This document shows positions 897 to 21,502 of a DNA stretch of 21,502 nt, piece by piece. The DNA is from a virus. The translations under genes and the position numbers were made by a program. Location of the stretch: positions 1 to 21,502 of IMG/VR virus record IMGVR_UViG_3300017971_000831; one strand, 5' to 3'. Position 1 is the first letter of the stretch. Each line of letters opens with the position of its first letter. The notes below the pieces were generated by a model. The model saw nothing but the letters and a program-made list of their open reading frames with translations, was not told the DNA's origin and ran no database searches.

Positions 897-1274
897 TTGA
901 GCGAAGTCAAAAAGATTATTGATCGCATTGAAGGTGAGCGCTCTAAAATAAAAGTTGATTTAATAAATCTTACAAAACATTTTGAGCGTCTTGGCGACAT
1001 AATGCAGAAACTTGAAAAAAGACCATCATACTTACGTTGCAAAGCAAATATGCGAACATTAAATGCGATGATTCGAGGTTTATCTACTCTTAGTTTTGGA
1101 ATGATCTTGCAGGATGAACAAGATGCCTTAGCTAAGAGAGAAGAGATTGAAGCACAAACGCGCGCAAAAGCCTCAAAAGAGCAGAGAGAAAAAAGAGTCG
1201 CTAAAAGAGAAGAGAAAGCTAAGAGTACATTGGCCGATTCTAAAGAAACCAATAGTTCTCCTGAAGCCCAATAA
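897..1274 (+). CDS. Small coiled-coil protein between terminase and portal
   Basis: This 125-residue protein of unknown function starts at TTG with a well-placed GAGGAA SD. Residues 1-70 are amphipathic helix with a heptad-like spread of Ile/Leu. Residues 75-110 are a very charged Lys/Glu/Arg helix (KREEIEAQTR and similar). The tail is Ser/Glu-rich. There is no signal peptide or membrane segment. Its place between terL and the portal suggests a packaging or head role, but nothing in the sequence proves this. It is too short and too unlike known DNA-binding small terminases to call TerS. Confidence 0.7.
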   Translation: MSEVKKIIDRIEGERSKIKVDLINLTKHFERLGDIMQKLEKRPSYLRCKANMRTLNAMIRGLSTLSFGMILQDEQDALAKREEIEAQTRAKASKEQREKRVAKREEKAKSTLADSKETNSSPEAQ

Positions 1275-1284
1275 GGTTTAGCAT

Positions 1285-3090
1285 ATGGCAAAGAAGAAGA
1301 AAAAGGCCGCAGCGAAGAAGGTTTCAAAGAAGGCTGCAGCAGACGCTCCTATAGATACTAAGCCTGTTGCTGAATTCAGACCGAGAATTACTCGAGGTAA
1401 GAATGGCAACAAGGCTGAAGTAGAAAAGCTACATAAAATTGCCGGCCGCATCAGTAAAAGAGCCGCAGCTGATATTTCTACGAGCGGAAATTTTTCATTT
1501 TATTCTCCTCAGCTCTCAACTGATTACCTTGAACTGCCAAGATCTCTACAAGAGAAACGAGAGTTCTTTCGGCATTTTTATCATAGTGATGAAATTGTTG
1601 GTCGTGCAATAGATCTTCATACTGAATTGCCCCTTTCTAAAGTTCGGCTGACTTTGCCCAAAGGCACGAATGACCATAAAAAAGCCGAAAAAGTTTTGGC
1701 TTTCTTTCAGCAAATGGTCGACCGTAATAAGCTATTTCAAATTTTATTAAGTGCTGCCCATGAATATTGGCTTCAAGGGAATTGTTTTATCTTTGCTGAA
1801 GACGGTGAAGGGCTTGAAACTAATTTTGATCCAAACTCTCTTGAGATAGATGACTTTTTACAAGATGAAGATACTCTTAAAGAGAAAAGAGAAAGAGCAA
1901 ATAAAGCTTTTGGTCAAGCAAACCCGCATTATCGCGGTTGGGAAAGGTTAACTATCTTACCACCCGATAATATTATGATTCGTTCTTATTCTTTTACTGA
2001 TATCAAGTCGATTGAATTAGTTCCGAGTGGTAATGAAAAGGCAATTTATTCTAGAGCCTTACAGGGAGATCCTGGAGCCGAGCAAATTGTAAACCAATTT
2101 CCAGATGAAGTTATAAATGCTCTGAATTCCGGCTCTAACATTTTTCTTGATTCCGATCCTTATTCGGGTTCATTTTGTTATCACCTAGCTAGACGGCGTT
2201 CATGGTATGAAGATTTAGGGTCTTCAATTTTAGAAAGATGTTTAAGAACGTTAGTTTATCGTGATAAATTGAGGCAAGCTCAATCATTGATCACCGATCG
2301 TCATATGACTCCTATTCATCTAGTTTGGGCTGAAAATTTAAGTGAGGATGATGTTGAGAATTTGCGAGAACAGGTTGACATGTCCTTGCTTGATCCTGAT
2401 TACAGTATTGTCACGAACTTTGAAGTGCATTGGACCGATATTGGTGCTCAAGAACGCATTCTAGAACTTTCTACCGAATATGAGCATAATGAGAACTTAT
2501 TATTTGCAGGTTTAGGAGTTACGCGAGAACTTTTAACAGGAGAAGGTACTTATGGTGGTAATCGTATCACCTTAGAAATTATGAATACGCAGTACCTCTT
2601 ATTTAGAGAAATCTTGCAAGAGTATGTTGAGCAATACCTTTTCAAGCCAGTAGCTCTTAAAAAGCATTTTATAGAAATTGACGCTTATGGTAATGAGATC
2701 CTTCTTTATCCAAAATTAAGCTTTACACGTCTCGCCATTTACGGCAACACCGAGTATTTCGAGCAGATCTTTTCACTCTACCAAAAAGGTTCAGTATCTA
2801 TTGATTATGTACTTGAGTTGCTCAATATCGATGCTGAAGATTCTAATGAGAAGGTTAAGAGAGACTTATTTACTATTGCTGATTCTAAATTTAATCAAGT
2901 AATTGATGGAATTTATACAACTGTAGCGACGCGATTGGCAGATGAGACGAATGTCGGTGGTAAGTTGATGAAATATCTGAATCTTAAGCCAGCTCCTGCT
3001 GGGGGTATTGAAGAAGGCGCTGAGGGAACTGAAGAGGCTGAAGCAGGAGCCGGGGCTGTAGAAGAGATGATTGAAGAGTCGAGGTTCTAA
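1285..3090 (+). CDS. Portal protein
   Basis: This 601-residue protein forms, by inference, the dodecameric channel at one capsid vertex through which DNA is packaged. The N-terminus is a Lys/Ala-rich basic tail (residues 1-50), followed by the portal-like opening LQEKREFFRHFYHSDEIVGR and AIDLHTELPLSK. A long alpha/beta body follows, with a conserved-looking helical stem region near residues 385-450 (ILELSTEYEHNE, VTRELLTGEG, NRITLEIMN). The C-terminus is acidic and Ala/Gly-rich (EEGAEGTEEAEAGAG), as in many phage portals. The length suits large portals. The start ATG has AAGG upstream. The stop overlaps the next start (TAATG), so translation is probably coupled. Position right after terL supports the call. 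I infer the family from pattern and context only. Confidence 0.85.
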   Translation: MAKKKKKAAAKKVSKKAAADAPIDTKPVAEFRPRITRGKNGNKAEVEKLHKIAGRISKRAAADISTSGNFSFYSPQLSTDYLELPRSLQEKREFFRHFYHSDEIVGRAIDLHTELPLSKVRLTLPKGTNDHKKAEKVLAFFQQMVDRNKLFQILLSAAHEYWLQGNCFIFAEDGEGLETNFDPNSLEIDDFLQDEDTLKEKRERANKAFGQANPHYRGWERLTILPPDNIMIRSYSFTDIKSIELVPSGNEKAIYSRALQGDPGAEQIVNQFPDEVINALNSGSNIFLDSDPYSGSFCYHLARRRSWYEDLGSSILERCLRTLVYRDKLRQAQSLITDRHMTPIHLVWAENLSEDDVENLREQVDMSLLDPDYSIVTNFEVHWTDIGAQERILELSTEYEHNENLLFAGLGVTRELLTGEGTYGGNRITLEIMNTQYLLFREILQEYVEQYLFKPVALKKHFIEIDAYGNEILLYPKLSFTRLAIYGNTEYFEQIFSLYQKGSVSIDYVLELLNIDAEDSNEKVKRDLFTIADSKFNQVIDGIYTTVATRLADETNVGGKLMKYLNLKPAPAGGIEEGAEGTEEAEAGAGAVEEMIEESRF

Positions 3091-3551
3091 TGCCTAAAGG
3101 TGAAGGTCAAGAAGGCAAGAAGCGAGGTCCTTATAAAAAAGATAAGGATGACGTTGAAATTCGGAGGCATAAGGCCCCTCATGGTAGAAAACCGCCTCGT
3201 GTAGATATGCATAAACTTATTGTTCCGGAAGAAGATCCTGATTTAATCAGCGATACTTATAAGCCTAAAAAGAAGTCCGAGGATCAGGTAGATCGTGTAA
3301 TTTCACAATTTAAAGATCAAGAACTCGAAAAGATGGCTCAAGATATTTATGCACATGCTTTAGAAAACCATGAAACTATTTGGACAGATGCATATAAACG
3401 TTATCCAGATTCTAATGGCAGCCAAGCATTGCCCGCATCTGAGTTCATTCTTGGTCTTCTTGGTGAACTTTACTCACAAGAGCATAGTTTTGATGTTTGG
3501 GCTCAAATTCGTTCAAAACTTTTCAGTAAAGTACATGCCGGGTTGACCTAA
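3090..3551 (+). CDS. Hypothetical head-module protein with basic N-terminus
   Basis: The 153-residue product begins with a Lys/Arg/Gly-rich disordered stretch (residues 1-45, including KKRGPYKKDKDD) and a short Pro-rich part, then an alpha-helical body (residues 65-150, with DRVISQFKDQELEKMAQDIY). Its start overlaps the portal stop by one base, so it is probably translated by coupling. I do not recognise a family. The position suggests a head or connector accessory protein or a DNA-contacting protein. No catalytic pattern is visible. Confidence 0.7.
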   Translation: MPKGEGQEGKKRGPYKKDKDDVEIRRHKAPHGRKPPRVDMHKLIVPEEDPDLISDTYKPKKKSEDQVDRVISQFKDQELEKMAQDIYAHALENHETIWTDAYKRYPDSNGSQALPASEFILGLLGELYSQEHSFDVWAQIRSKLFSKVHAGLT

Positions 3552-3578
3552 AGCTCTTCGATCTTCCTGCCTTGTTAT

Positions 3579-3594
3579 AATAATCCACTAATAG
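3579..3594 (+). promoter_or_regulatory. Motif AATAATCCAYTAATA, copy 1 (putative phage promoter)
   Basis: AATAATCCACTAATAG lies 28 bases after the stop at 3551 and about 40-50 bases before the next start. Near-identical copies are at 8271 and 9990, each in the same kind of gap. The AT-rich core and repeated placement suggest a promoter element. A 7-bp inverted repeat follows at 3601-3620. Confidence 0.5.
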
Positions 3595-3600
3595 ATTATC

Positions 3601-3620
3601 AAATGATGATAATATCATTT
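3601..3620 (+). repeat. Small inverted repeat downstream of motif copy 1
   Basis: AAATGAT (3601-3607) and ATCATTT (3614-3620) are perfect inverted copies separated by six bases. No U-tract follows, so a terminator is unlikely. It may be an operator or a 5' mRNA hairpin. Confidence 0.4.
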
Positions 3621-3633
3621 CCATTTTTGGATT

Positions 3634-4146
3634 TTGAGAAAAGTGGCAAATACGAAACTAGAACTACGAGAAGAAGATGAGGTTTCTTCTTGGTCATATG
3701 ATGCTAGATTTGAACCGACCGAGAATGTAGATCTTCCTTCGATTGATGATTATGAAGATTTTGATCTGATTTCGGCTTATGATTTTGAATATTGGCGTAG
3801 AAATCCATGGGGTTATATCGATAAGGCTTATCTTTGTGAGACAGATTTCAAGCGAATTGTTTCGAAAGCTTTAGATTTAAGAGATGAAGAGACTTATTCT
3901 TGTAACCCAGATGCTGCTAACTCATCTGCACTTGAATTAGCAATCTGGAGTATGGATGATGCCGCTTATCAATCAAAGATCCATCCAAATGTTTTCAAAG
4001 AGATGCTTGTAGCAATGGAAGATCCAAAATTTAAGAAAGTTTCAAAAGAGCTACAAGCACGTGATCTTAATAAACTTTATGCAGTTGAGAAACTGCTTAA
4101 ATTAGCTCAAGAATTAAAAGACCTTTCTTTTGAGGAGATCTCGTAA
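3634..4146 (+). CDS. Hypothetical acidic head-module protein
   Basis: The product has 170 residues if TTG at 3634 is used. GTG at 3643 is an equally possible start and would give 167 residues; neither has a strong SD. Residues 15-50 are rich in Asp/Glu and aromatics (SIDDYEDFDLISAYDFEYW), and the rest is mostly helical. There are no membrane segments and no recognisable domain. It is the first gene after motif copy 1. The next gene starts two bases after its stop. Function unknown. Confidence 0.65.
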   Translation: MRKVANTKLELREEDEVSSWSYDARFEPTENVDLPSIDDYEDFDLISAYDFEYWRRNPWGYIDKAYLCETDFKRIVSKALDLRDEETYSCNPDAANSSALELAIWSMDDAAYQSKIHPNVFKEMLVAMEDPKFKKVSKELQARDLNKLYAVEKLLKLAQELKDLSFEEIS

Positions 4147-4147
4147 G

Positions 4148-4651
4148 ATGAATAAGGCTACAGCTGAGAGGATGATGACACGGCTGATGCGGATTGCCGG
4201 TGAGGTACACAAAGAGAATCCAGACCTCGCGAAGCGTATCAAGAGAGTTGCCGAATGGTTAGAAGGGGATGCTGACGAATCGCGCTTCATGAAGAACTTT
4301 GACTTCGATGGCACCTATGAAGGTGATGCTGATGAAAGTCGTTACATGAAGATGTACGATGATGTCAAAGATCTTCCTGCTCGGGATTCTGAGGTGCAGA
4401 AGAGAGTTGAGCCTCCCGTCAAGGATTTGAACACTGACAAAAAGTGGAAGAATCCACATGAGGGGCAGGGTCCAGTTGATTATCACTGGGCTAAGGCACT
4501 TAAAGTCGCCTCGGCGCGCCTTGACAATCTTGCTGAGCAGGTCGAACCGCATGATGCAGATCTTGCTCTCCGCATTGATCAGATTTCAGATGCGATTGAT
4601 GTCGAGCGTGAGCGTGTAGCAGCCGCCTTAAAAGAAAAAGAAGAAAAGTAA
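4148..4651 (+). CDS. Virion-type protein with helical-hairpin and EGDADESR repeats
   Basis: The 167-residue product starts at ATG 4148 with GAGGAG ten bases upstream; a longer TTG start at 4130 would overlap the previous gene. Two internal repeats are visible. Residues 39-49 (EGDADESRFMK) recur as residues 58-68 (EGDADESRYMK). The N-terminal helical segment (RLMRIAGEVHKENPDLAKRI, residues 12-31) has a degenerate echo near the C-terminus (RLDNLAEQVEPHDADLALRI, residues 124-143). The gene is clearly richer in GC than the genes before it, a feature shared with the capsid genes at 10928-12435. This may mean high expression. No known family was recognised. A structural role in the head is inferred from place and composition. 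Confidence 0.7.
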   Translation: MNKATAERMMTRLMRIAGEVHKENPDLAKRIKRVAEWLEGDADESRFMKNFDFDGTYEGDADESRYMKMYDDVKDLPARDSEVQKRVEPPVKDLNTDKKWKNPHEGQGPVDYHWAKALKVASARLDNLAEQVEPHDADLALRIDQISDAIDVERERVAAALKEKEEK

Positions 4652-4697
4652 GCGTTGCTTGCCTTTACAAGTAACGTTGGCGGTGGAGACTAAGTAT

Positions 4698-6275
4698 ATG
4701 CCCTATCCTAACGAACACGCAGCTCGGCTAAAAGAACCAGATCAATACGAAGACTGGGCGCGACAAAACGATCGCTTCGGCAAAGGTGTTGACGCAATCT
4801 GGGGAATCAAGCGAGGCAAACCTCAATTACAAGCTCTGAGATTCGATAAAGAGACTTTTACCGCAGCCGAAGCAAAGAAATGGCTCAAATCGCACAATTA
4901 CGATCCGATCTTGTTCGAAGCTGCTGAAGGTGAAGAGAAATCGAAGAAGAAAAAGAAGACCAAGAAAAAGAAGTCTGCAGGCGCACTCTACCCATCTCTT
5001 GTCGCTCCTGAAGACTTCAGGCCTGGAGATGTTGTTCGAAAGATCTTTGGTGATTTCAGAGTAACTGAATACACCGGAATCATTCTTGCAGTACATCCAA
5101 CTACGCAGACGGTTGATGTTAGATGGCCGTATGGGATAGGGTTCGAAAATCCGCAAGATCTTGTTCGAGTAAATCCATTCTTTGAGCCCCCGACAGTTGT
5201 GATTGACGGTGAGGGCTATTACACGACTTGGGATGCTGAAAGGTGGAACAGCAAGACAGATGTTCCGTCAAAGGGAGTGTCAGGAAGATCTCCTCTTTAT
5301 CATGATACCCGAGATATAATTGATGATATAATTAAGAACGCAGCCACCACGACTAATGCTCTGCCCTCATACACCTTTACATCTAATGTGGATAACAACA
5401 CAATTTATGTAAACAGTGCAGGCAGTGTAACATTAACTGAAGGGTCTTATACTTCTGTGGATAATGCAATTGAAGTAACTTTAGATAATGAAATACCGGA
5501 TGAACTTAAAGCTGCTCGAATTGCTGATCGTTATGTTCGAAGAGCATTTAACGTTTTGTTAAGAGCCGCTTCACATCCATATAATGCTGGCTTAAATGAC
5601 TTACAGACATATAGTTTACTTTACAGGAAGTTCGGCCAGCACTATTCAGAACCCTCAATCCGCAAAGTAGTCTCTTATCTGTATGGTGAACCTCATACAT
5701 ATGCAGTTGAAGATTTTGATCGCGTAATTCAAGCAGCAGTCGTCGCGGCTCAAGAAAAGGATAAGAAATTATTAAAAGAAATGTTCTTGGCCGTTGTAGG
5801 CGCAACGCAAGGGGATACAGGTAAAAGCCTAAATGATCTACTTGACTTTTCAATCGAAACTCCGCATGCTAAAGAGATTTACAATAATTTTAGGCATGCC
5901 GTGCGTAGAGGCGGGGGCAGGTTAGATCTTTTACCAACACCTAGTGCAAGATTTGCTTCTCAAGAGAAGCAAAGTGATGAGGTAACAAATCTCGACAATA
6001 TGCAATGGACCGTAATTACTTTACCAGCTTTGAGTGAACAAGCCTTCCAGCAGCTCTTTGATGTTGAAGAGGATTTAGTTAATATCGCTGAGATGTCCGA
6101 AACACCTTTCACTGAAGCTGCGCAAAAGTTGAGTCCTGAAATTGCAAAGCTTTGGGCGGATCTTACATATCTAGAAGATAAGACAGCTGTCGAGTTTAAT
6201 CAACCTCTAAAAGATCTGGCGGGTAGCGGTAAAATTCGCGAAGCTTTTAATCAACTTAAAGCTCTCAAGAGTTAG
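4698..6275 (+). CDS. Composite structural protein: PYPNEHA domain, beta-barrel-like domain, long C-terminal region
   Basis: I choose ATG 4698 because GGAG lies nine bases upstream; a TTG at 4659 would add 13 residues. Residues 1-78 carry MPYPNEHAARL, a small domain I associate with phage and prophage proteins, function not firmly known. A Lys-rich linker (residues 81-93) follows. Residues 97-160 look like a small beta barrel (FRPGDVVRKIFG, EYTGIILAVHP, VDVRWPYGIG). From about residue 205 to 525 the protein is different, with a Thr/Ser/Asn-rich part and then helices. Base composition drops sharply near base 5300-5340, at this boundary. The gene therefore looks like a fusion of two modules of different history. 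It sits in the head region and is probably a virion or head-assembly component. It could also hold an unrecognised enzyme domain. Confidence 0.7.
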   Translation: MPYPNEHAARLKEPDQYEDWARQNDRFGKGVDAIWGIKRGKPQLQALRFDKETFTAAEAKKWLKSHNYDPILFEAAEGEEKSKKKKKTKKKKSAGALYPSLVAPEDFRPGDVVRKIFGDFRVTEYTGIILAVHPTTQTVDVRWPYGIGFENPQDLVRVNPFFEPPTVVIDGEGYYTTWDAERWNSKTDVPSKGVSGRSPLYHDTRDIIDDIIKNAATTTNALPSYTFTSNVDNNTIYVNSAGSVTLTEGSYTSVDNAIEVTLDNEIPDELKAARIADRYVRRAFNVLLRAASHPYNAGLNDLQTYSLLYRKFGQHYSEPSIRKVVSYLYGEPHTYAVEDFDRVIQAAVVAAQEKDKKLLKEMFLAVVGATQGDTGKSLNDLLDFSIETPHAKEIYNNFRHAVRRGGGRLDLLPTPSARFASQEKQSDEVTNLDNMQWTVITLPALSEQAFQQLFDVEEDLVNIAEMSETPFTEAAQKLSPEIAKLWADLTYLEDKTAVEFNQPLKDLAGSGKIREAFNQLKALKS

Positions 6276-6277
6276 AT

Positions 6278-6559
6278 ATGAGCTGCATTCTAGGAAGAGA
6301 ATTTAATTTTAAATCAACAGTTGAGGGTGAAGTCTATACTTTCGTAGTTGTATGGCAAGAAGTCGAAGACAAAGTGTATGTAAAGAGTATTGAGACACCT
6401 CGAGGCCATGCTGGATTTGCTATACCTATTCCAGAGCAAGTCGTGAAAGATATGTATATCGCCACTCAAATGGTTAGAGCAGATACTTTTGCTGATCACT
6501 ACACTGGAGTACCTCAGATAACAGGGCATGGTGGATCAGGATTTATCTGTATGAGTTAA
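6278..6559 (+). CDS. Hypothetical small protein
   Basis: This 93-residue protein starts two bases after the previous stop. It has beta-strand character in residues 5-45 (YTFVVVWQEVEDKVYVKSI) and ends Gly/His-rich (GHGGSGFICMS). No membrane segment, signal peptide or known motif is visible. It is probably co-transcribed with the genes on either side. Function unknown. Confidence 0.65.
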   Translation: MSCILGREFNFKSTVEGEVYTFVVVWQEVEDKVYVKSIETPRGHAGFAIPIPEQVVKDMYIATQMVRADTFADHYTGVPQITGHGGSGFICMS

Positions 6560-6569
6560 AAGGTACGTT

Positions 6570-7172
6570 ATGGGCAATTTGCATATTAGTTTAGGTGAAA
6601 ATGTTCAAGATCTTATAGAGCTTTATTGGGAAGCCGGTGATAGCACTATAGATCACTTTAAAGTATACCATTCTGTCGCTGTTGGTGGTCCTTTTACTTT
6701 ATGGGATCCGCATATACCTAATTATCCTTCTCGTTGGGTTCAGCGGATGGCCGTCGCATTTAATGTGTCGCGAGTAGCCCTTGGTATTAATCAGAATGTG
6801 CCCCATCACTTTAGAATTACTGAAGTTGATAAGGCAGGAGTCGAAAGCCTTTTAGCTAACTCACCAACGCGTGCTGTGCCGGCTCCTGGGTCTCCTCGAT
6901 TTCAGTTTGATGCTAATATTACCGTAGCTGCCTATCCGACTAATCCTCAGTTTAATTTTGGTTTTTCAGCCACCTCTTTCTTGATTGTCAATAAAGGGGG
7001 TGGGGGCGAAATCGAATATAGCTTTGACGGTGTAGCAACTCATGGTAAACTTGGAACTGCGGGTGCACCAGATAATGGTAAGGTATTTGACTTTAGAAGA
7101 GCGCGAAAAATTTGGTGTAAGCATACAGGATCGGCGCAAATGGTAAGAGTTGAGGCTTGGGTAAATCGTTAA
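6570..7172 (+). CDS. Beta-rich protein with fibronectin III-like N-terminal half
   Basis: This 200-residue protein has AAAGGT upstream of its ATG. Residues 1-100 resemble a fibronectin type III fold in layout: LIELYWEAGDSTIDHFKVYH, then HHFRITEVDKAGVES before a short tail. Residues 115-200 form a second beta domain (FLIVNKGGGGEIEYSFDG and WCKHTGSAQMVRVEAW). Two beta modules of this kind are typical of surface-exposed virion proteins that decorate heads or fibres. There is no catalytic pattern. A strong terminator follows, so it is the last gene of its unit. The assignment is by pattern only. Confidence 0.65.
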   Translation: MGNLHISLGENVQDLIELYWEAGDSTIDHFKVYHSVAVGGPFTLWDPHIPNYPSRWVQRMAVAFNVSRVALGINQNVPHHFRITEVDKAGVESLLANSPTRAVPAPGSPRFQFDANITVAAYPTNPQFNFGFSATSFLIVNKGGGGEIEYSFDGVATHGKLGTAGAPDNGKVFDFRRARKIWCKHTGSAQMVRVEAWVNR

Positions 7173-7199
7173 ATAAAGCTTTTAAGCTAAATTAGATCT

Positions 7200-7223
7200 G
7201 CGCGGTTATATCCGCGCTTTTTT
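7200..7223 (+). terminator. Rho-independent terminator
   Basis: GCGCGG (7200-7205), loop TTATAT, CCGCGC (7212-7217), then six T. This is a clean intrinsic terminator that ends the unit of the beta-rich protein and separates it from the glycosyltransferase. Confidence 0.9.
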
Positions 7224-7237
7224 AGTGTAAGAATTAG

Positions 7238-8266
7238 ATGATCAAATCTATTATCTTTTTAAAGAAAGGTATTAATGCTTGCACACATTACCGTGTTGAT
7301 ATACCTGCTAAATTTTTAACTCAGCTTAACTTTAATGTAAGAATAAAAGAAACTATTCAAGCAGAGGATTTAAATGATATAGATAAGACTATATTTGTTT
7401 TTGGGCGCGCTGCTTCATATGATGAGTTAAATCTTTTCAGAGAAATCAAACATAGGGGAGCTACTGTAGTTTATGAATTAGATGATAATCTCTTAGACTT
7501 GCCTTCAGGTAACCCTGCAACTATTTTCTATCTAAGCAAACAAGGATATATTAGATCTTTTATCCGTGAAGCTAATCATGTTATTGTCACAAATGAAGCG
7601 CTTAAGAAAGTCTTGCAGAACTATAATCGGCAGATCTCGTGTGTCGATAATTATCTAGATCTTGACTATGCGCGTATTGAATGCTCACCTAATCTTTTTG
7701 ATAAACATTCAAAAAGATTAGATGCTTCTATCTTTGACGGGCGTTTTGTTATACTTTGGGCTGGAAGTATAACGCATAGAGATGACTTAAGAGTTTTGAG
7801 TAAACCGCTTTTAGCCTTTTTGCATAAATATCCAGAAGCTTTGCTAGTCGCTGTTCACTCATTAAACAAAGAGTTGCTTGTGCATATCTCGAATGAGCAG
7901 CTTTGTTTAGTCTCTGCTGTGCCCCCTACGCAATACCTTAATTTACTTTCGAAGTTGTCTGCAGATGTCGGATTAGCTCCTTTATGCAGGCATCCTTTTA
8001 ATGAGTGTAAGAGTAGACTTCGAGTTATTGAGTATATGGCTTCAAGCATCATCCCCCTTGCAAGCAATTTAGGACCGTATAGAGAAATTCTAGAAGGGAC
8101 ACCTTTTGCTGACTTGCTTTGTTCGGTGGGCTGGTACGAAAAGTTAGAGTGGTTAAAGAATGAAGTAAACCTAGAAGTTCTAAAAGAGCATTTGTCTCAG
8201 TTTTGCCGAGAACGTTTTATTATTCAGAACTCTAACTGGGCAGATGTCTTTATAAATCTCACCTAA
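7238..8266 (+). CDS. GT-B type glycosyltransferase
   Basis: The 342-residue product is likely a sugar-nucleotide-dependent glycosyltransferase of GT4-like layout. The N-terminal Rossmann half contains YELDDNLLDLP (residues 79-89). The second half opens with VILWAGSITHRDDL (residues 171-184), a pattern typical of these enzymes. The donor-binding region reads GLAPL (245-249), HPFNECKSR (252-260) and EYMA (265-268), followed by PLASNLGPYREI. The Glu of EYMA matches the usual nucleotide-sugar-contacting Glu. No membrane segment is visible, so it is probably cytosolic. It stands alone between a strong terminator and motif copy 2, with no clear SD (GTGTAAGAATTAG before ATG), so it looks like a moron cassette. 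Its target could be host surface sugar, phage DNA or a virion protein; the sequence does not say. Confidence 0.8.
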   Translation: MIKSIIFLKKGINACTHYRVDIPAKFLTQLNFNVRIKETIQAEDLNDIDKTIFVFGRAASYDELNLFREIKHRGATVVYELDDNLLDLPSGNPATIFYLSKQGYIRSFIREANHVIVTNEALKKVLQNYNRQISCVDNYLDLDYARIECSPNLFDKHSKRLDASIFDGRFVILWAGSITHRDDLRVLSKPLLAFLHKYPEALLVAVHSLNKELLVHISNEQLCLVSAVPPTQYLNLLSKLSADVGLAPLCRHPFNECKSRLRVIEYMASSIIPLASNLGPYREILEGTPFADLLCSVGWYEKLEWLKNEVNLEVLKEHLSQFCRERFIIQNSNWADVFINLT

Positions 8267-8270
8267 AGAC

Positions 8271-8285
8271 AATAATCCATTAATA
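8271..8285 (+). promoter_or_regulatory. Motif AATAATCCAYTAATA, copy 2 (putative phage promoter)
   Basis: AATAATCCATTAATA begins five bases after the glycosyltransferase stop and lies 57 bases before the ATG of the prohead protease. It is identical to copy 3 and differs from copy 1 by one base. No sigma70-like promoter is evident nearby. Confidence 0.55.
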
Positions 8286-8330
8286 TTTTCTAAGTTTAAA
8301 TTGATTCTACTGTGTCCATTGAATTTGTTC

Positions 8331-8336
8331 AAGAGG
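8331..8336 (+). promoter_or_regulatory. Ribosome binding site selecting ATG 8342
   Basis: AAGAGG lies five bases before ATG 8342. An in-frame GTG at 8312 would add ten residues but has no SD, so 8342 is preferred. Confidence 0.6.
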
Positions 8337-8341
8337 ATGAG

Positions 8342-9991
8342 ATGGCATTTTTAAAAGTCGCAAACGCGGTTGTTGTACGTAACTTAAAAGACTGGGAAGA
8401 ATGGGGTGGTGAGTCTTTATTTCATACAAAGACTGCTCAAAAAGAGATTGTCTCAAAATATGAACCAGACAAATATCTTTTAACACATTGCACAATTATC
8501 GCTAGTGTAGATGTTGAAAAGGATAACCCTCATTTTATCACTCCCGAAACTACACGTTTTGTGAACAACAATTATGACGCTTGGGAAAGAGATCTGCTCT
8601 TAGGTTGCTATAAAACATTCATTGGTGCAAACAATTATGTAGAGCATGTGCAGGTTGAAGATTTAGCAAAAGGCAAAGTGATTGATGCTGTTGCGCGAGA
8701 AGTTATCTTTCCTTCAAAGACTGCAAACGAGCGTGAGGCAAAATCGATCTATGTTGACATTTTAGTCGCCACTGATCGAAAACATAAAAAACTTGTTAAA
8801 GATATCGAAGAAGAAAGAACAAATAAACTTTCAATGGGTTGTGCTGTTGCCTTTACGATTTGTTCTAAATGTGGTAATAAGGCAGAAGATACAGTACAGC
8901 TGTGCCGGCATATTAAATATGAAAAGGGAAATAAGTTTTTAGATGATAGCGGGGTTGAGCGCATTGTTGCTGAACTTTGTGGTCATAAAGATGATCCTGA
9001 AAGTGTAAAGTTTATTGATGCAAGTTGGGTGGAGAATCCAGCTTTTACAGGCGCCGTTCTAAATAAGATCTTAATACCTGAAGGTGATAGTTCTGTACAA
9101 GCAAAATTAAAGTCTGCTTTTGAGGTGGGCGCAATTACAGGTATTGAGTCATTACATCTCAAGAAAGTTGCCGGTACTAACTTTTATAAGGTCGCACAAC
9201 CTGAAGATGAACCAGAGCCTGAGCTTGAAGAGGCGGCACCTGAAGAAGAGGTCGCACCTGAAGAAGAGGTCGCACCTGAAGAGCTTGCACCTGAAGAAGA
9301 AGCAATAGAAGAAGTTGAAACACCTGATGAGCTAACTGAGATTTCGGATGAGATGACCTTTGGTGAAGTCAAAGATATTATCAAAAAGAAGTTAAAAGAA
9401 AAAGCCAAGCATGAAATTAAAGAAGAGCTTCTTAGAGAGCTTGAAGAAGAGTTTTCAGAAAGTGAACGCTCCGAAGAATATTTTGAAGAAGAAGGGCACA
9501 CACGAGATACATTAGTTTCTTCTTCAGAGCTAAATACTGTTAAACAAGGCATTCATTATGATGAGAAAATGCCTTTCGATCAATTAGGCTACATTACTGC
9601 CAAGACACGTGAAGAAGCGATCAGTAAATTGTCTACAGTACCCCGCAAAAAGTTTGCTGATTTGTTTTCTAAGTATTTTAGAAGCAGAGAAGGTGCTGAA
9701 GATATACACACTGCTATAAAGATTTTAGCACTTGCTTCACCGAATTCCTGGGAACGTTTAGCAAAGTCGAAAATTTCGGGTAAAGGTGCTGTTCTTCTAT
9801 CTGCTTTCCTTGATTCTCTAATTAAAGCGAATTACGATCAGCGAATTTATATGGCTGCTTTAAATTCTAGTAAGTTTAAGCATAGAGATACATTTAAAGC
9901 ATATTTAAAACGTCTTTTCGGTCGCGAGCTCGAAGCAACTGAACTAAAGAAGGTTGTTCAAGAAGTGGAACGATTCAATCTTTTTAGTTAA
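8342..9991 (+). CDS. Prohead protease fused to acidic and helical scaffold-like tail
   Basis: The product has 549 residues from ATG 8342. Residues 1-245 look like a phage prohead protease: NYVEHVQ (His102), LSMGC (Ser164) and ASWVENPAF (residues 227-235). The His and Ser are the likely catalytic pair of the herpes-protease fold shared by many prohead proteases. A Cys-rich insert follows the Ser: CSKCG (C174, C177), LCRH (C188, H190) and LCGH (C213, H215), possibly binding zinc. Residues 285-370 are extremely acidic with a tandem PEEEVA repeat. The last 160 residues are helical. Such proteases mature the head by cutting scaffold and shell proteins from inside. The long tail suggests a protease-scaffold fusion. 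It is followed by the scaffold-like and capsid genes. The exact peptidase family was not tested. Confidence 0.75.
   Translation: MAFLKVANAVVVRNLKDWEEWGGESLFHTKTAQKEIVSKYEPDKYLLTHCTIIASVDVEKDNPHFITPETTRFVNNNYDAWERDLLLGCYKTFIGANNYVEHVQVEDLAKGKVIDAVAREVIFPSKTANEREAKSIYVDILVATDRKHKKLVKDIEEERTNKLSMGCAVAFTICSKCGNKAEDTVQLCRHIKYEKGNKFLDDSGVERIVAELCGHKDDPESVKFIDASWVENPAFTGAVLNKILIPEGDSSVQAKLKSAFEVGAITGIESLHLKKVAGTNFYKVAQPEDEPEPELEEAAPEEEVAPEEEVAPEELAPEEEAIEEVETPDELTEISDEMTFGEVKDIIKKKLKEKAKHEIKEELLRELEEEFSESERSEEYFEEEGHTRDTLVSSSELNTVKQGIHYDEKMPFDQLGYITAKTREEAISKLSTVPRKKFADLFSKYFRSREGAEDIHTAIKILALASPNSWERLAKSKISGKGAVLLSAFLDSLIKANYDQRIYMAALNSSKFKHRDTFKAYLKRLFGRELEATELKKVVQEVERFNLFS
9236..9303 (+). repeat. 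Tandem in-frame repeat coding PEEEVA
   Basis: GCACCTGAAGAAGAGGTC occurs at 9236-9253 and 9254-9271, then in shorter or diverged form at 9272-9286 and 9287-9303. It lies within the acidic linker of the prohead protease and could vary in copy number by slippage. Confidence 0.85.
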
Positions 9992-10005
9992 TAATCCATT
10001 AATAG
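9990..10005 (+). promoter_or_regulatory. Motif AATAATCCAYTAATA, copy 3 (putative phage promoter)
   Basis: AATAATCCATTAATAG overlaps the stop codon of the protease gene (TAA at 9989-9991). It is followed by a leader of about 100 bases before the scaffold-like gene. It matches copy 2 over all 15 core bases. Confidence 0.55.
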
Positions 10006-10028
10006 TCGAGAACATGATGATTGGTAAC

Positions 10029-10055
10029 GAAATATTATTTCAAAAGTAATATTTC
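10029..10055 (+). repeat. Long AT-rich hairpin in the leader of the scaffold-like gene
   Basis: GAAATATTA (10029-10037) pairs perfectly with TAATATTTC (10047-10055). The stem extends by three more pairs to a CAA loop if a G-U pair is allowed. No U-tract follows. It could stabilise the 5' end of the capsid-operon mRNA or bind a regulator. Confidence 0.55.
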
Positions 10056-10109
10056 ACTAATTTCGAAAAGTTCATTAATTAAGAGATCATCTTATAGAGG
10101 AGTTTAACT

Positions 10110-10883
10110 ATGCGCAAGCGACTTACTCAAAGGAAAAAAGAAGCAGATCAGAAAAAGACTGCTGAACTAACTGATCCGAATCAGTTAGGGAGAGAGGATC
10201 GCGTGAATCCGCCCTTGTCCAAGTATGAAACTCACAAGTTTGTTGAGAATCATCCTCTTCCAGATCTGAAACATGATTGGCAGAAGGACAAGAGGAATGA
10301 AGTGGGCCTTCCAGCACCTATGAAAGAGGCTGCTGTGCGCCAAGCTCGTCAAGAGCGTGATAGGCTAGAAAAAGAAACTAAGAAGAAGGCTGAAGCTTGC
10401 CTCAAGATTGCTGAGATGATCCTGCCAGAAGGTGATGTGAATGTTCAAGAAGATCAGGCAGTTGATCTTATGGATCTTCCGACTGATGCTATTGTCAACA
10501 CATTGCGCAGAAAGTATGAACTCCTCGAAAATATAGAAGCAGCCGCCAAGGAAGCAACCGAAGACAAGGAAGCAACCGAGGAGCAGACAGAAGAGACAAA
10601 AGAAGCTTTCGGTGAAGAAGCTACAGATGCTGAGCTGAAAGAAGAAGAGACGAAGGAAGTCGAAGCAGAAGAGAAGTGTGCAGAAGAAGATGAGATTGAG
10701 ATGTCGGCTGCAGAAGAAGATGAGATCTTAGATCGTATCTTCACAAAAGAGACTTCCGAGAAGAAAGAAGTAAAGAAGGAAGGCGCAAAGAAGCTTGGAA
10801 ATGTGAAGAAAGCGAGCGTCGATAATGATCTTTCAAAGCTTTGGAAGTCAGATCCTGACGTATCCAACGCTTTCGGAATTTAG
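10110..10883 (+). CDS. Highly charged scaffold-like protein
   Basis: This 257-residue protein starts at ATG after AGAGGAG. Residues 1-20 are very basic (MRKRLTQRKKEADQKK). Residues 20-75 are polar with several Pro (NPPLSKYETHKF, GLPAPMKEAA). Residues 75-150 are helical. Residues 145-215 are an almost continuous Glu/Lys/Ala stretch. The tail is Lys-rich and ends DVSNAFGI. Lack of Cys and aromatics, high charge, and position between the prohead protease and the shell genes all fit a scaffolding or internal core protein that is removed or cleaved during maturation. No enzyme motif is present. It could instead be a packaged internal protein. Confidence 0.7.
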   Translation: MRKRLTQRKKEADQKKTAELTDPNQLGREDRVNPPLSKYETHKFVENHPLPDLKHDWQKDKRNEVGLPAPMKEAAVRQARQERDRLEKETKKKAEACLKIAEMILPEGDVNVQEDQAVDLMDLPTDAIVNTLRRKYELLENIEAAAKEATEDKEATEEQTEETKEAFGEEATDAELKEEETKEVEAEEKCAEEDEIEMSAAEEDEILDRIFTKETSEKKEVKKEGAKKLGNVKKASVDNDLSKLWKSDPDVSNAFGI

Positions 10884-10916
10884 TTAGATACTTGTAGTTC
10901 TTTGGTAGAAGCATTC

Positions 10917-10927
10917 GGGAGGTGATC
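10917..10927 (+). promoter_or_regulatory. Near-ideal ribosome binding site before decoration gene
   Basis: GGGAGGTGATC is complementary over its length to the usual 3' tail of 16S rRNA and ends directly before ATG 10928. It decides that start over the in-frame GTG at 10922 and suggests very strong translation. Confidence 0.8.
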
Positions 10928-11536
10928 ATGACGGTCAGTATTCAGGGTGCTGATTACGGGCTTAGAATCCTGTACATCGGCCACCGGAACACCCTCGGCT
11001 TCTTGGACGCGAATGGCTTTTCTAAAGTCAATTTCGTGGCTGGGACTACAATCAACTCCACTCTTTCGACCTCAACTCCCAAGGGCGTGCTCGCGGGTAG
11101 TGTTGCGGTTGTGAAGGGTTCGGATTTGATTGGAAATCCCACTCCGGCAGCTTCACCGGAGCCAGCTGAGCAGCCGCTGGGATTGTTCATCAACGACGCA
11201 GCTGGATACGCATTCCAGTCCACATCAGCTGCGGCATCAGGCAGGGCGCCTTACGTGGACAGCATGGGTACACATGAGGTAAGGTACTACGAGACCAACG
11301 AGCGGGATCAGTACGGTGTGCACACGGCTACGTTGCTCACTTACACCGCAGGCGATCCGCTGTATTGTGACAGCAGATCGGGTCTTTTGACAAACGTAGC
11401 ACCAGATGATCTTTCAACGGCGCCTCCTACGGTGACCAATGGGATCATTGCAGTGGCTTGGAATTGTCCGATCGCGATTCTGACTCGGCCGCCAACCACA
11501 GCTGACACCTCGATGAGAATCGCTTTAAGAGTCTAA
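10928..11536 (+). CDS. Putative capsid decoration/stabilisation protein
   Basis: The product has 202 residues from ATG 10928. It is rich in Gly, Ala, Thr and Ser with beta character and few Lys. It includes SVAVVKGSDLIGNPTPAA, a NDAAGYAFQSTSAAASGRAP region, and LTYTAGDPLYCDSRSGLLTN, which resembles phage head-decoration and capsid-stabilising proteins. The gene sits directly before the major capsid protein, has an exceptional SD, and shares the high GC of that gene, in contrast to most of the window. No signal peptide or catalytic motif is visible. Another possibility is a fibre- or vertex-associated head protein. The role is inferred from neighbourhood and composition. Confidence 0.7.
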   Translation: MTVSIQGADYGLRILYIGHRNTLGFLDANGFSKVNFVAGTTINSTLSTSTPKGVLAGSVAVVKGSDLIGNPTPAASPEPAEQPLGLFINDAAGYAFQSTSAAASGRAPYVDSMGTHEVRYYETNERDQYGVHTATLLTYTAGDPLYCDSRSGLLTNVAPDDLSTAPPTVTNGIIAVAWNCPIAILTRPPTTADTSMRIALRV

Positions 11537-11547
11537 GGAGGACTAAA

Positions 11548-12435
11548 ATGAGTGATCAAGGCCATGGTGAAGTCCTCAGCAATGAGGCTAAAAGCCAGAT
11601 CATCGGGGACCTGATCAAGACCGCCGCAGGGCGGCAGAAGTTGGCAGCCTCGATGATTCAGCCGCTGAGAGCTCGTCGTGACTACACGAGCATCGGCAGA
11701 AAGACCTTCCTGGTTGAGCAGTTGCCTGATGGCGCACTGCCCATCTATGACAGAGACCCGGATGCGGTCGCTTATGTCATTGGTGAGGAAGGTGAAAACG
11801 TGCTGGCTATTCAGAAGCCGCGCAGAGTCATCTTTCCGCTCTTCGAGATCGCGTCGAATCCTGAGATTCCGCTCACACAGGTGAAGGAAAGACGGTACGA
11901 CCTGATCGAAAGAGCACAGGACCTGGCGAAGAGTGAAGTCCAGGCGGAAGAAGACACGAGAGTCTTCGCAGTAATGGACGCCATCCAGGCGGTCGGCTTT
12001 GGCGGTCTTCCGCCCAATCCTGACATCCCGGTGGCAGCTCCTATCACAGGTGATGTACTCGCCGACGCATTTGCGACGATTGAGCGTCATGACCTGAGAG
12101 TTGCGAGACTGTTCTTCAACGCCAAGGACTACACCGACGTGAGGAAGTTTGGCCGTGATATCCTTGATATCGAGAGCCAGGCAACCTTACTGAAGACAGG
12201 CCTGATGGCGAACCTTTGGGGCGCACAGCTGATGGTCAGCAGAATCGTGCCCGTGGGTAAGGTATATGTTTGTGCCGAACCTGAGTTCTTCGGCCGCATT
12301 CCGGTGCGTACGGAACTCACAGTGCTCAGTGCAGACGATCCGAAGGCCCGCACGATTGGGTTCAGCATCTTTGAGAACCTGGGCATTGGTGCTTACAACC
12401 CGTTCGCTCTCACAAGGCTCGACGTCAGCAGGTAG
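11548..12435 (+). CDS. Major capsid protein (HK97-fold type)
   Basis: The 295-residue product starts at ATG after AAGGAGGA. Helical N-terminal residues 1-45 are followed by a beta region with PRRVIFPLFEIASNP (residues 90-104), like the E-loop and P-domain start of HK97-fold shells. A long helix follows (ERRYDLIERAQDLAKSEVQAEED, residues 113-135), resembling the spine helix. LADAFATIERHDLRVARLFFN and KFGRDILDIE then match the A-domain layout seen in such proteins. It is the shell subunit by inference: it follows protease, scaffold-like and decoration-like genes, has the strongest expression signals of the window, and is closed by an intrinsic terminator. GC is about 58% in bases 11581-11640. 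Family by pattern, not by search. Confidence 0.85.
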   Translation: MSDQGHGEVLSNEAKSQIIGDLIKTAAGRQKLAASMIQPLRARRDYTSIGRKTFLVEQLPDGALPIYDRDPDAVAYVIGEEGENVLAIQKPRRVIFPLFEIASNPEIPLTQVKERRYDLIERAQDLAKSEVQAEEDTRVFAVMDAIQAVGFGGLPPNPDIPVAAPITGDVLADAFATIERHDLRVARLFFNAKDYTDVRKFGRDILDIESQATLLKTGLMANLWGAQLMVSRIVPVGKVYVCAEPEFFGRIPVRTELTVLSADDPKARTIGFSIFENLGIGAYNPFALTRLDVSR

Positions 12436-15340: not shown

Positions 15341-15349
15341 GAGGGAAAG

Positions 15350-15529
15350 ATGTGGACTTTAAAATCTCTGTTGCGTTCGGCCGAGCAAACTCAAGCAGAA
15401 ATCAACGGTAAATGGGTACCTGCTCGTCCGTTAAATTGGAAATGCCGTAGCTTTCGTGAACGTCTTTGTGAAGCTTGGGCAGTATTTAAGGGCCGAGCAG
15501 AAGCATTTACTTGGCCAGAAGGACAATAG
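15350..15529 (+). CDS. Small basic Trp-rich phage protein (59 residues)
   Basis: ATG 15350 follows AGAGGGAAAG. The product has 59 residues with five Trp and many Arg/Lys: it begins MWTLKSLLRSAEQTQAEING, continues KWVPARPLNWKCRS and ends AEAFTWPEGQ. The unusual composition and even codon pattern point to a real gene. I have the impression that such short proteins occur in other phages, but could not check. No function is known. It is followed two bases later by a small membrane protein. Confidence 0.65.
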   Translation: MWTLKSLLRSAEQTQAEINGKWVPARPLNWKCRSFRERLCEAWAVFKGRAEAFTWPEGQ

Positions 15530-15531
15530 TT

Positions 15532-15657
15532 ATGAAAGAGGATTTAACACTTATTCTATTAACTATTGCGATGTTTATTTTCGCTCTATGCCAAGCAGGT
15601 GAAAGATTTGTCCGCGGAGAAAGATTATATCCTACTAATGAAGACGAATTTATTTAA
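15532..15657 (+). CDS. Small single-pass membrane protein (41 residues)
   Basis: This 41-residue product starts two bases after the previous stop. Residues 5-22 are a hydrophobic segment (LTLILLTIAMFIFALCQA), followed by a charged tail (GERFVRGERLYPTNEDEF). It may be an inner-membrane peptide. It is too small to assign as holin or spanin. It overlaps the next gene by 20 bases. Confidence 0.5.
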   Translation: MKEDLTLILLTIAMFIFALCQAGERFVRGERLYPTNEDEFI

Positions 15658-17747: not shown

Positions 17748-18037
17748 TGATTTTAGATCAATTAGTTGAGAAGAAAGATCTCTACATTTATCTCAAGTAT
17801 CGTATACTTGAGCTACAGAAAGCTGAAGCAGACCTATTTGTAGCGATCAAAGAAGATGAATCATTAAATAAGACCAAAAAGCTACAACACGCTGTTTTGC
17901 GTCTTAAAGGAAGCATCCGCGAATTAAGAAGGCTTAAGGCTTCTCTAGAAACAGGACGGCTTAAAGAAGAATGTAAAAGGATGTGGAGACCAGACGATGA
18001 AATGGGTGAGGAAGGAAGGCATCAAGATTCCGATTAA
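17747..18037 (+). CDS. Hypothetical coiled-coil protein upstream of rtcB
   Basis: The 96-residue product begins in a TAATG overlap and ends inside the start of rtcB, overlapping it by 41 bases. It is mostly coiled-coil helix (YRILELQKAEADLFVAIKED, LRLKGSIRELRRLKASLETG). The close coupling suggests co-expression with rtcB, but it bears no resemblance to the RtcB helper archease that I can see. Function unknown. Confidence 0.6.
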   Translation: MILDQLVEKKDLYIYLKYRILELQKAEADLFVAIKEDESLNKTKKLQHAVLRLKGSIRELRRLKASLETGRLKEECKRMWRPDDEMGEEGRHQDSD

Positions 18038-19202
18038 ATCTTGGTGTGAATCTATTGATATTGAAGCTGAAAAGCAAGCTGTAAATCTTGCTAATCTGCC
18101 ATTTGCTTTTAAACACATTGCTCTTATGCCTGACTGTCATGGTGGGTATGGCATGCCTATTGGTGGCGTTCTCGCTACAAATGGGGTAGTTGTCCCCAAT
18201 GCTGTAGGTGTTGATATTGGTTGTGGTATGGGTTTCTTTGAAACTAATATCGACGCAGATGAAGTTGTTACAGCGCCAGATGATTTTCTTCGTAAGTTCG
18301 TTCAGGAACTTAAAAGAAGCATTCCTGTTGGTTTTCATCATCATAAAATAGCCCAGAAGTGGGAAGGTTTTAACCGCGCCCCTCAAACTCCTCCAGTCAA
18401 GCAAGAGCTCGAATCAGCAAGATTTCAGTTAGGCACTCTTGGTGGAGGTAACCACTTTATTGAGTTACAGAGATCAGATACAGGCAAACTTTGCTTAATG
18501 GTGCATTCAGGGTCTCGTAACTTTGGTTATAAGATCGCTAAATATTATAATGCTCTTGCTCAGAAGCTTTGTAAACGCTGGTATTCTAACATCCCTGAAT
18601 TTAAAGGTGAAGATGGTTTAGCCTTTCTTCCCATTGAAACACTTGAAGCCAAAGCCTATTTAGACTCGATGAATTATGCCTTAGACTTTGCTAAAGAGAG
18701 TCGTGCGCATATGATGAATACCTCTATAAACATCCTTAGTAAATTGCTGAAATCGGAGCTTTCTTTAGATCTTAGTTTGGGGCGCGAAGTTAACATTCAT
18801 CATAACTTTGCAGCTTGGGAAAATCATTATGGTAAGAATGTCATTGTGCACCGTAAAGGAGCTACTCAGGCACGGAAAGATCAGTTTGGTATCATACCCG
18901 GTTCTATGGGAACATCCTCTTACATTGTGCGTGGGCTTGGCAATTCAGAATCGTTTGAATCATGCTCGCATGGAGCTGGAAGAAAATTAGCTCGCGGGAA
19001 AGCCAATAGAACTCTTACAATGACTGATGTTGAAAAGGCTATGGGTGATATCGTTTTTGAGATTGGAGTTGACCGTAAAGGTAACCCCGATCTTAGCGAA
19101 GCGCCGCAAGCGTATAAAGATATTGATGAGGTAATCGACGCTGAGAAAGATCTTGTCGAGGTAGTTACGAAATTGCAACCACTGGCTGTAATTAAAGGAT
19201 AA
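17997..19202 (+). CDS. rtcB: RtcB RNA ligase (3'-phosphate / 5'-OH, GTP-dependent)
   Basis: The 401-residue protein is full length (E. coli RtcB is 408). RtcB joins RNA 2',3'-cyclic phosphate or 3'-phosphate ends to 5'-OH ends using GTP and Mn2+. The motifs are intact: MPDCHGGYGMPIGG (44-57), GVDIGCGM with metal Cys76 (71-78), GTLGGGNHFIE with His153 (146-156), MVHSGSRNFG with His170 (168-177), NIHHNFA with His268/269, RKGATQA (286-292), IIPGSMGTSSYIVRGLGN (299-316) and SCSHGAGR, where His325 is the expected guanylylation site. The end AYKDIDEVIDAEKDLVEVV follows E. coli RtcB closely. GGAG is eight bases before ATG. It lies in a run of phage accessory genes. A role in repair of tRNA cut by host anticodon nucleases is the likely inference. 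Confidence 0.95.
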   Translation: MKWVRKEGIKIPIKSWCESIDIEAEKQAVNLANLPFAFKHIALMPDCHGGYGMPIGGVLATNGVVVPNAVGVDIGCGMGFFETNIDADEVVTAPDDFLRKFVQELKRSIPVGFHHHKIAQKWEGFNRAPQTPPVKQELESARFQLGTLGGGNHFIELQRSDTGKLCLMVHSGSRNFGYKIAKYYNALAQKLCKRWYSNIPEFKGEDGLAFLPIETLEAKAYLDSMNYALDFAKESRAHMMNTSINILSKLLKSELSLDLSLGREVNIHHNFAAWENHYGKNVIVHRKGATQARKDQFGIIPGSMGTSSYIVRGLGNSESFESCSHGAGRKLARGKANRTLTMTDVEKAMGDIVFEIGVDRKGNPDLSEAPQAYKDIDEVIDAEKDLVEVVTKLQPLAVIKG

Positions 19203-20399: not shown

Positions 20400-20620
20400 A
20401 ACTAGGGCATTTTCTTGAAATAATTACGTTAAACGATTTTCAGAAAGCTTACGGACGGCATCTGAACGCACTTCGATTTAATTTCGGTTTCCCTTTCTGT
20501 CCTAAATGCGATAGAAGAATAGCTGGCTGGCGAAGATTTCTTTTTTGGCGAAGAATCCATAATCGGAGGTGCCGGGAGAAATTTGGGCACCTTTTAAACG
20601 ATTTTAGAAAGAAGAGCTAA
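20396..20620 (+). CDS. Small basic putative zinc-binding protein
   Basis: The 74-residue product is very basic. FCPKCDRR (C35, C38) with H55 and C59 in IHNRRC could form one zinc site, similar to short zinc knuckles that bind nucleic acid. Trp and Arg dominate residues 40-60 (GWRRFLFWRR). It starts in an ATGA overlap. Function unknown. Confidence 0.6.
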   Translation: MKLGHFLEIITLNDFQKAYGRHLNALRFNFGFPFCPKCDRRIAGWRRFLFWRRIHNRRCREKFGHLLNDFRKKS

Positions 20621-20922
20621 TGTCAGAAGAACTAAAGAAGAGAACTTGGTGTTGGATTATGCTTCCCGCTGATTATGAGATTCGTTGTGATCTTTGTAAA
20701 GGCGCTAACATTACTTGGTCTGAATATGAGAATCTGATTTGGTGTTATGACTGTGAAAAAGATACACCTGGAACTTCCGGTATTTTTGATGGGCCGATTA
20801 TGGTTAATACGGTCCAACTAATGGGCATTTCTCTTGACCGTTTTGATTGTGTTAATGAACGAAGGCTTTATCTTCATCAGACTGATTCTGGTATTGATTG
20901 GAAACCAGAACCTCCAGAATAA
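20620..20922 (+). CDS. Small zinc-ribbon protein upstream of the structured RNA
   Basis: The 100-residue product has two CxxC pairs, CDLC (C23, C26) and CYDC (C42, C45), around a short beta segment, a likely zinc ribbon. The rest is beta/loop with MVNTVQLMGISLDRFDCVNE. The start overlaps the previous stop by one base. Its stop codon falls at the very 5' edge of the RNA stem at 20921, so ribosomes ending here would touch that stem. Function unknown. Confidence 0.65.
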   Translation: MSEELKKRTWCWIMLPADYEIRCDLCKGANITWSEYENLIWCYDCEKDTPGTSGIFDGPIMVNTVQLMGISLDRFDCVNERRLYLHQTDSGIDWKPEPPE

Positions 20923-21205
20923 GGATCTAACAACCTTGCGGGTCGTGGGAACCTCGACTCACGTTAAGAACGAGAGGAATGACTAGGTGGCTTTGACCGT
21001 TTGTCTCCTATCAGAGAAACGGTTGTGGGCAGATGAGCTCCCCACTCGTGTTAGCTTTGACACGACAAAACTTAGCTTGCTGAGCGCCGATCTCAGCACA
21101 ATGATTCGGCCGGGGTGCTTGTTAATTCCTGATCGAACAGCTGGAATTGACTAGGTGTGCATTCCGAATAATGTACTACACTCGTAGATAGGTTGTTAGA
21201 TCTTT
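20921..21205 (+). ncRNA. Candidate large structured RNA, class not recognised
   Basis: This gap holds no convincing coding frame but is dense in pairing. A terminal stem joins 20921-20936 with 21190-21205 (16 bp, one G-U). Inside are hairpins 20944-20949/20958-20963, 20996-21007/21014-21023, 21025-21029/21041-21045, 21046-21052/21059-21065, 21078-21084/21092-21098 and 21122-21129/21143-21150, plus a short one at 21176-21187. GGAAUG (20976-20981) could pair with CAUUCC (21160-21165). The loop GCCGA (21086-21090) can pair with UCGGC (21106-21110) as a pseudoknot. Several G-U pairs occur that would not form on the other strand, so plus is favoured. I see none of the landmarks of tmRNA, RNase P RNA, tRNA or group I introns. 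It may be a free RNA, or a leader of the gene at 21225. Confidence 0.7.
20976..21157 (+). repeat. Duplicated motif GGAAT(T)GACTAGGTG inside the RNA
   Basis: GGAATGACTAGGTG is at 20976-20989 and GGAATTGACTAGGTG at 21143-21157, differing by one inserted T. The ACTAGGTG part falls in predicted single-stranded joints in both places. Confidence 0.75.
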
Positions 21206-21224
21206 TAAGAGGAAAGAGGTAAAG

Positions 21225-21502
21225 ATGAAAGAAGAAGACATCTACAAACCTCAAAATATAAAAAGAACCGAAGAAGTTTTTTCACCTTCGAAGAAGTTCA
21301 AACTTGAGATCATTTACTATTTCACAAAAGAAGGTTGTTGGGAATATACTCGAGGTAAGCTATACCGTGTCTTAGACAATAAAATTATTGCCGATATCAA
21401 AAGAAATTATTCTACCTTCCACCATAGCTTCCAAACTAAAAACTCTCAAGAGTATCTAATCACCGGGCGCAGCTATATGGGGCAAACGATTGTCAATTTA
21501 GA
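21225..21502 (+). CDS. Hypothetical protein, 3' truncated by window
   Basis: ATG 21225 follows AGAGGAAAGAGGTAAAG, with SD-like GAGG twice, 20 bases after the structured RNA. The frame stays open to the window end (92 complete codons). After a charged start (KEEDIYKPQNIKR) the product has regular beta strands with FKLEIIYYFTKEG, WEYTRGKLYRV and IIADIKRNYSTF, then YLITGRSYMGQTIVNL. I recognise no family with certainty. Its closeness to the RNA makes it the natural partner or regulatory target. Confidence 0.65.
   Translation, partial: MKEEDIYKPQNIKRTEEVFSPSKKFKLEIIYYFTKEGCWEYTRGKLYRVLDNKIIADIKRNYSTFHHSFQTKNSQEYLITGRSYMGQTIVNL

Follow-up and report, generated by a model that had tools for sequence, protein, structure and literature searches.

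A candidate structured noncoding RNA, so far one of a kind, in the gene-free gap of a huge-phage genome fragment

What occupies the single long gene-free gap in a viral DNA fragment whose genes otherwise leave little space between them? The window, by which we mean the whole 21,502-nucleotide stretch analysed, is a 21.5-kb viral record of huge-phage type with every gene on the plus strand, and in the operon that contains the gap adjacent genes mostly overlap or abut. The original prediction, made from the letters of the DNA, placed a large, tightly closed structured RNA here and proposed that it might represent a new class of phage RNA. Our analysis retains a structured plus-strand RNA, matching no known family, as the best reading of the locus. 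The proposed new class is not established, because a class needs members and no second one was found. We regard the RNA as a credible candidate that is so far one of a kind.

Genomic setting of the gap

Positions 1-12435 of the window hold the terminase, portal, protease and capsid genes, and these are followed by a block of small genes that includes an RtcB ligase gene. The capsid protein shares 77% identity with its counterpart in a 485-kb uncultured phage, 51% with that of Tunturiibacter phage Tunturi_5 and 37% with that of Bacillus phage G. Of the relatives found, contig G039/L113 is the closest; its portal and capsid proteins are, respectively, 74% and 95% identical to those of the window. 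Conservation inside this one cluster is very uneven, with the capsid (window 11548-12435, L113 17805-18689) at the value just given and the terminase and glycosyltransferase near 50%. The small-gene block after the capsid gene is absent from the 69 kb of G039/L113 that could be read, so the RNA candidate sits where the genome is variable. The RtcB RNA ligase gene (window 17997-19202; PF01139, E 1e-109) lies 1.7 kb upstream of the candidate, and its nearest relatives found in viral contigs are just 52-55% identical.

The gap, at 20923-21224, is the sole real long gene-free gap of the fragment, as the original prediction had claimed. A second apparent gap (15341-15565) contains an ATG-started ORF of about 57 codons (15341-15530; MWTLKSLLRSAEQ...EAFTWPEGQ), which is likely a small phage protein overlooked by the 60-aa cut-off. 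GC content is about 47-49% in the RNA region versus about 39% in its surroundings. The arms of the candidate's closing stem, P1, coincide with the edges of the gap: the 5' arm begins in the upstream gene's stop codon, and the 3' arm stops 3 nt short of the downstream gene's purine-rich ribosome-binding site (21209-21219), which directly follows P1.

The protein encoded upstream belongs to no family in Pfam, NCBIfam or PHROGs. The downstream-gene family is found on three viral contigs (L110 10001-10699; L111; L112); it is unnamed and carries the motifs TKEGCW and YLITGRSYMGQT. On contig G040, a relative of the downstream gene (75% identity) directly abuts another gene with no RNA between them, which means that this gene can occur without the RNA as its leader and counts against a leader conserved with it. 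Upstream on the plus strand no promoter-like site of the sigma-70 type was found, though phages of this sort may rely on other promoters, and directly behind the RNA there is no terminator-like site. Co-transcription with the neighbouring genes is therefore likelier than an independent transcription unit.

Predicted fold, strand and coding potential

The candidate is predicted to be multibranched, with about seven hairpins inside a 16-bp closing stem that is extended by an 11-bp stem (Table 1). Both structural elements of the original prediction, a 16-bp terminal stem and six or more internal hairpins, are recovered: the arms of P1 are 94% complementary, and the prediction gives seven hairpins whose pairing probabilities lie between 0.45 and 1.0. 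Of these, B, D and F exceed 0.8, while two further helices (20951-20956/20980-20988 and 21111-21118/21159-21166) have probabilities of just 0.1-0.2 and are not to be trusted. P1 contains the only perfect 13-nt inverted repeat of the window at a spacing of 120-400 nt; scaling puts the number of perfect repeats of this length and spacing to be expected in the window at about 0.17.

Table 1. Coordinates of the candidate RNA, its predicted parts and the flanking genes in the window.
Feature	Position	Strand	Remarks
Upstream gene	20620..20922	+	100 aa; stop codon (TAA) extends into P1
Whole structured RNA candidate	20919..21208	+	MFE -107.6 kcal/mol, z -5.74; seen nowhere else in the records searched
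Closing stem P1, 5' arm	20921..20936	+	Inverted repeat; pair probabilities 0.65-1.0; overlaps upstream TAA stop
P1 extension (7 + 4 bp), 5' side	20937..20948	+	Probabilities 0.77-0.83 and 0.44-0.61
Hairpin A	20958..20976	+	Probability 0.45-0.66
Motif copy 1, TGACTAGGTG	20980..20989	+	Direct repeat; GGAA precedes
Hairpin B, 8 + 3 bp	20995..21024	+	Probability 0.85-1.0
Hairpin C	21025..21045	+	Probability 0.5-0.55; palindrome GAGCUC in loop
Hairpin D, 8 bp	21046..21065	+	Probability 0.82-1.0
Hairpin E, 5 bp	21071..21084	+	Probability 0.64-0.65
Hairpin F, 5 + 3 bp	21086..21110	+	Probability 0.87-0.98
Hairpin G, 9 bp, 13-nt loop	21121..21151	+	Probability 0.73-0.76
Motif copy 2, TGACTAGGTG	21148..21157	+	GGAAT precedes; first bases in 3' strand of hairpin G
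P1 extension, 3' side	21176..21186	+	3-nt bulge 21187-21189 between extension and P1
Closing stem P1, 3' arm	21190..21205	+	Inverted repeat, pair probabilities as for the 5' arm
Downstream gene, 5' part	21225..21502	+	Relatives in other phages 43-75% identical

None of 600 dinucleotide shuffles of the plus strand of 20919-21208 folded as well as the native sequence (shuffle mean -80.2 kcal/mol, sd 4.8). With DNA parameters the same strand gives a z of -5.0. The minus strand also folds unusually well (MFE -87.2, z -3.66), as an inverted repeat must. The stems had been described as containing G-U pairs valid only for RNA on the plus strand. G-U pairs indeed make up 11 of the 96 pairs, and the preference for the plus strand goes beyond what composition explains; the good folding of the minus strand qualifies this.

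After GC correction, the fold is the lowest of the 296 segments of the window and ranks second among 2913 segments drawn from the window, its close relative G039/L113 and G040. The top-ranked segment overlaps a stretch of L113 that encodes a homolog of window gene 10922-11536, a protein gene, and energy by itself is therefore not proof of an RNA. When the 16-bp stem is removed, z falls to -2.4 and 9 of 400 shuffles do as well, which indicates that the internal hairpins alone are no more than mildly unusual and that the closing stem, as the strongest part of the signal, accounts for most of the significance.

Inspection of all six frames agreed with the earlier remark that the region has no convincing coding frame. 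The longest started frame has 55 codons, from a GTG at 20987, and its codon-usage score (-0.12) compares with means of +0.19 for the genes and -0.19 for out-of-frame sequence. A search for its relatives gave no matches and no protein remnant was detectable. We rejected it as a gene, given its out-of-frame-like codon usage and lack of relatives.

GGAA(U)UGACUAGGUG occurs twice in the RNA. Both copies are for the most part unpaired and lie after, or overlap with, the ends of hairpins A and G; within the window the motif is restricted to these two places. The underlying 15-nt gapped match, GGAA(T)TGACTAGGTG, between the two halves of the RNA was equalled in 9 of 1000 shuffles, a result that is suggestive and not decisive. 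The palindrome in the loop of hairpin C might allow self-pairing, and the loop of hairpin G has the palindromes GAUC and AGCU; palindromes as short as these three are common by chance. OLE and GOLLD RNAs self-associate through palindromic loops (PMC12286853).

Search for known families and relatives

The earlier reader recognised no known RNA family in this sequence, and comparison with Rfam leads to the same result. None of its 4227 models matched at the gathering threshold. When filters were permissive and E values up to 10 were allowed, the only match was UPD-PKib, whose 21.5 bits (39 are needed) correspond to chance. A tRNA or tmRNA was ruled out with ARAGORN, which found 0 genes. The RNA has a GACUAG string resembling one core element of group I introns; an intron of this type was rejected, there being no RF00028 match at E up to 10 and the element lying between complete genes.

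A collection of homologues had been suggested as a check on the RNA. About 160 related-phage loci were gathered with capsid, portal, RtcB and downstream-gene queries. No homologues were found by blastn in phages and plasmids, nor in 41 related records. A covariance model built on the single sequence (R1) recovers the window copy at 373 bits and revealed no second member in the records of about 90 relatives, many of which are fragments. This is a weak negative, since a model built on one sequence becomes less sensitive as relatives diverge and the records searched may lack those closest to the window. The other R1 matches in these relatives and in the fetched loci were short hairpins only, at 4-14 bits, and one of them, in G040 (L203 7205-7229), was rejected as it lies inside a protein gene. 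Synteny via three relatives of the downstream gene gave no credible R1 match either.

Patterns combining the paired motifs were also run across IMG/VR and GTDB and identified no second member. The 10-mer pattern had 0 matches in viral contigs and the 9-mer pattern had 41, which is about the chance expectation; none of the 41 was confirmed by R1, nor was any of 6 matches in genomes. A pattern with a wider repeat unit had 0 matches. Neither sequence nor structure thus yielded a second member in which the stems could show compensatory changes. The RNA matches no family tested, precedents exist for large structured phage RNAs of this kind, and it may be the founder of a new family that so far has one member.

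In the related locus L077, the capsid gene is directly followed by a 394-nt, AT-rich gap (10868-11261) with a large closed fold. This gap adjoins an ORF resembling a homing endonuclease with zinc-ribbon repeats and has no Rfam match at threshold. It is unrelated to the RNA candidate.

Possible function and comparison with known systems

The explanation we favour, with a probability of about one half, is that the element is a phage gene for a structured noncoding RNA that lies in an operon, is excised at P1 and acts in trans; this degree of confidence reflects a mechanism based on architecture and analogy. The RNA gene, between two protein genes, would probably be transcribed together with its neighbours, and the long closing stem would probably join the two ends of the RNA. 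A double-strand-specific nuclease of the RNase III type could then cut the stem, by analogy only with the processing around ribosomal RNAs, and the product, about 250-290 nt long, would be a compact and stable RNA. Once freed, it would probably act in trans, in a structural or protein-binding role, and the two GGAA(U)UGACUAGGUG elements could be its repeated contact sites. The upstream RtcB ligase gene hints at RNA repair or circularisation; as many as 655 phage records of the collection have an RtcB gene, however, and the link is speculative.

The main rival, possible if unlikely, is a cis-acting intercistronic element. The structure would remain in the mRNA and act on its neighbours, either by placing the upstream stop about 20 nt or less from the ribosome-binding site that follows, by stabilising the message or by serving as a switch for downstream translation. 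Such an element fits the position of P1, whose arms reach from the upstream stop to 3 nt short of the ribosome-binding site, and in an operon whose genes mostly overlap or abut, looping the insert out would preserve coupling. However, the ribosome-binding site lies outside the structure and is not sequestered, the 75%-identical downstream-gene relative on G040 has no such element, and 285 nt with seven hairpins exceed what this kind of control needs.

We consider it improbable that the element is a mobile DNA insertion, whether a small non-autonomous transposon with terminal inverted repeats or a DNA hairpin serving as a recombination or attC-like site. The 16-bp inverted repeats at both ends, the good folding both as single-stranded DNA and on the minus strand, and the absence of the adjoining small-gene block from G039, which makes the region a variable island, are all consistent with an insertion. 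On the other hand, there is no second copy in the records searched and a single one in the 21.5-kb fragment, the arms are not directly flanked by a target-site duplication of 3 nt or more, and the internal hairpins favour the plus strand. Integron attC sites have RYYYAAC/GTTRRRY ends, an unpaired central spacer, extrahelical bases and a length of about 60-150. The ATCTAAC/GTTAGAT of P1 fits the core pattern, but P1 is unbroken, with neither spacer nor extrahelical bases, and the 285 nt of the element are roughly double what is usual; we rejected it as an attC site. The least likely of the readings is that there is no functional RNA, and that a chance inverted repeat arose in a GC-rich non-coding remnant such as a decayed gene. 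The modest z of the hairpins without P1, the segments of related phages with similar GC-corrected energies, one of them overlapping a protein gene, and the lack of homologues point in this direction. Chance would nevertheless have to produce a fold unequalled in 600 shuffles and a 13-nt repeat expected about 0.17 times in the window, with arms that coincide with the gap edges, and no protein remnant is detectable.

To our knowledge, very few kinds of large structured phage RNA have been described, GOLLD and ROOL among them. If the favoured reading of an excised, trans-acting RNA is true, a compact RNA that brings its own excision stem would be simpler to produce, to probe and to delete than those of 600-800 nt. 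What is more, huge phages may carry RNA genes missed by family-based searches, because few of their relatives have been sequenced. We are doubtful of a bolder version, namely that this RNA is the first known representative of a new class of ornate phage RNAs of middle size, is released from a polycistronic transcript by way of the closing stem it carries, may self-associate via its palindromic loops or be circularised by the phage RtcB, and uses the GGAA(U)UGACUAGGUG copies as contacts.

Several known systems invite comparison. The pRNA of phi29-type phages is a small structured phage RNA that acts in trans. The candidate is likewise a structured phage RNA, but it has no Rfam match, lies 20 kb from the terminase gene and accompanies portal, terminase and capsid genes of huge-phage and not of phi29 type. 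The msr-msd RNA of retrons is noncoding and has several hairpins closed by an inverted repeat, as does the candidate, although the latter has more hairpins than a typical retron RNA. A retron was rejected, since no reverse transcriptase gene was recognised in the window and the downstream gene belongs to another family. The omega RNAs of TnpB and IscB (including HEARO, RF02033) are structured RNAs of 150-400 nt borne by phages and transposons; here, no TnpB or IscB gene adjoins the candidate and there is no HEARO match. The close relative G039 does have a TnpB-like reading frame, on the strand opposite to the late genes, followed by a strong run of hairpins (L199 about 10042-10441; G039 contig 59041-59440) that is possibly its omega RNA or a transposon end; R1 has no match at this locus.

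GOLLD (RF01998) and ROOL (RF03087) are large ornate RNAs of phages and prophages with unknown function, often found near tRNA islands (PMC12286853). Many GOLLD RNAs exceed 800 nt and the solved ROOL example has 659 nt (PMC12286853), whereas the candidate has 290 nt; membership in either family was rejected, with no match to their models at E up to 10. Neighbouring tRNA genes are frequent for these RNAs and not obligatory, and there are none in the window, which ends 300 nt downstream of the candidate. Self-assembly into RNA cages is a further trait of GOLLD and ROOL. The candidate resembles them in being a multibranched phage RNA, with palindromes in its loops like those through which OLE and GOLLD self-associate.
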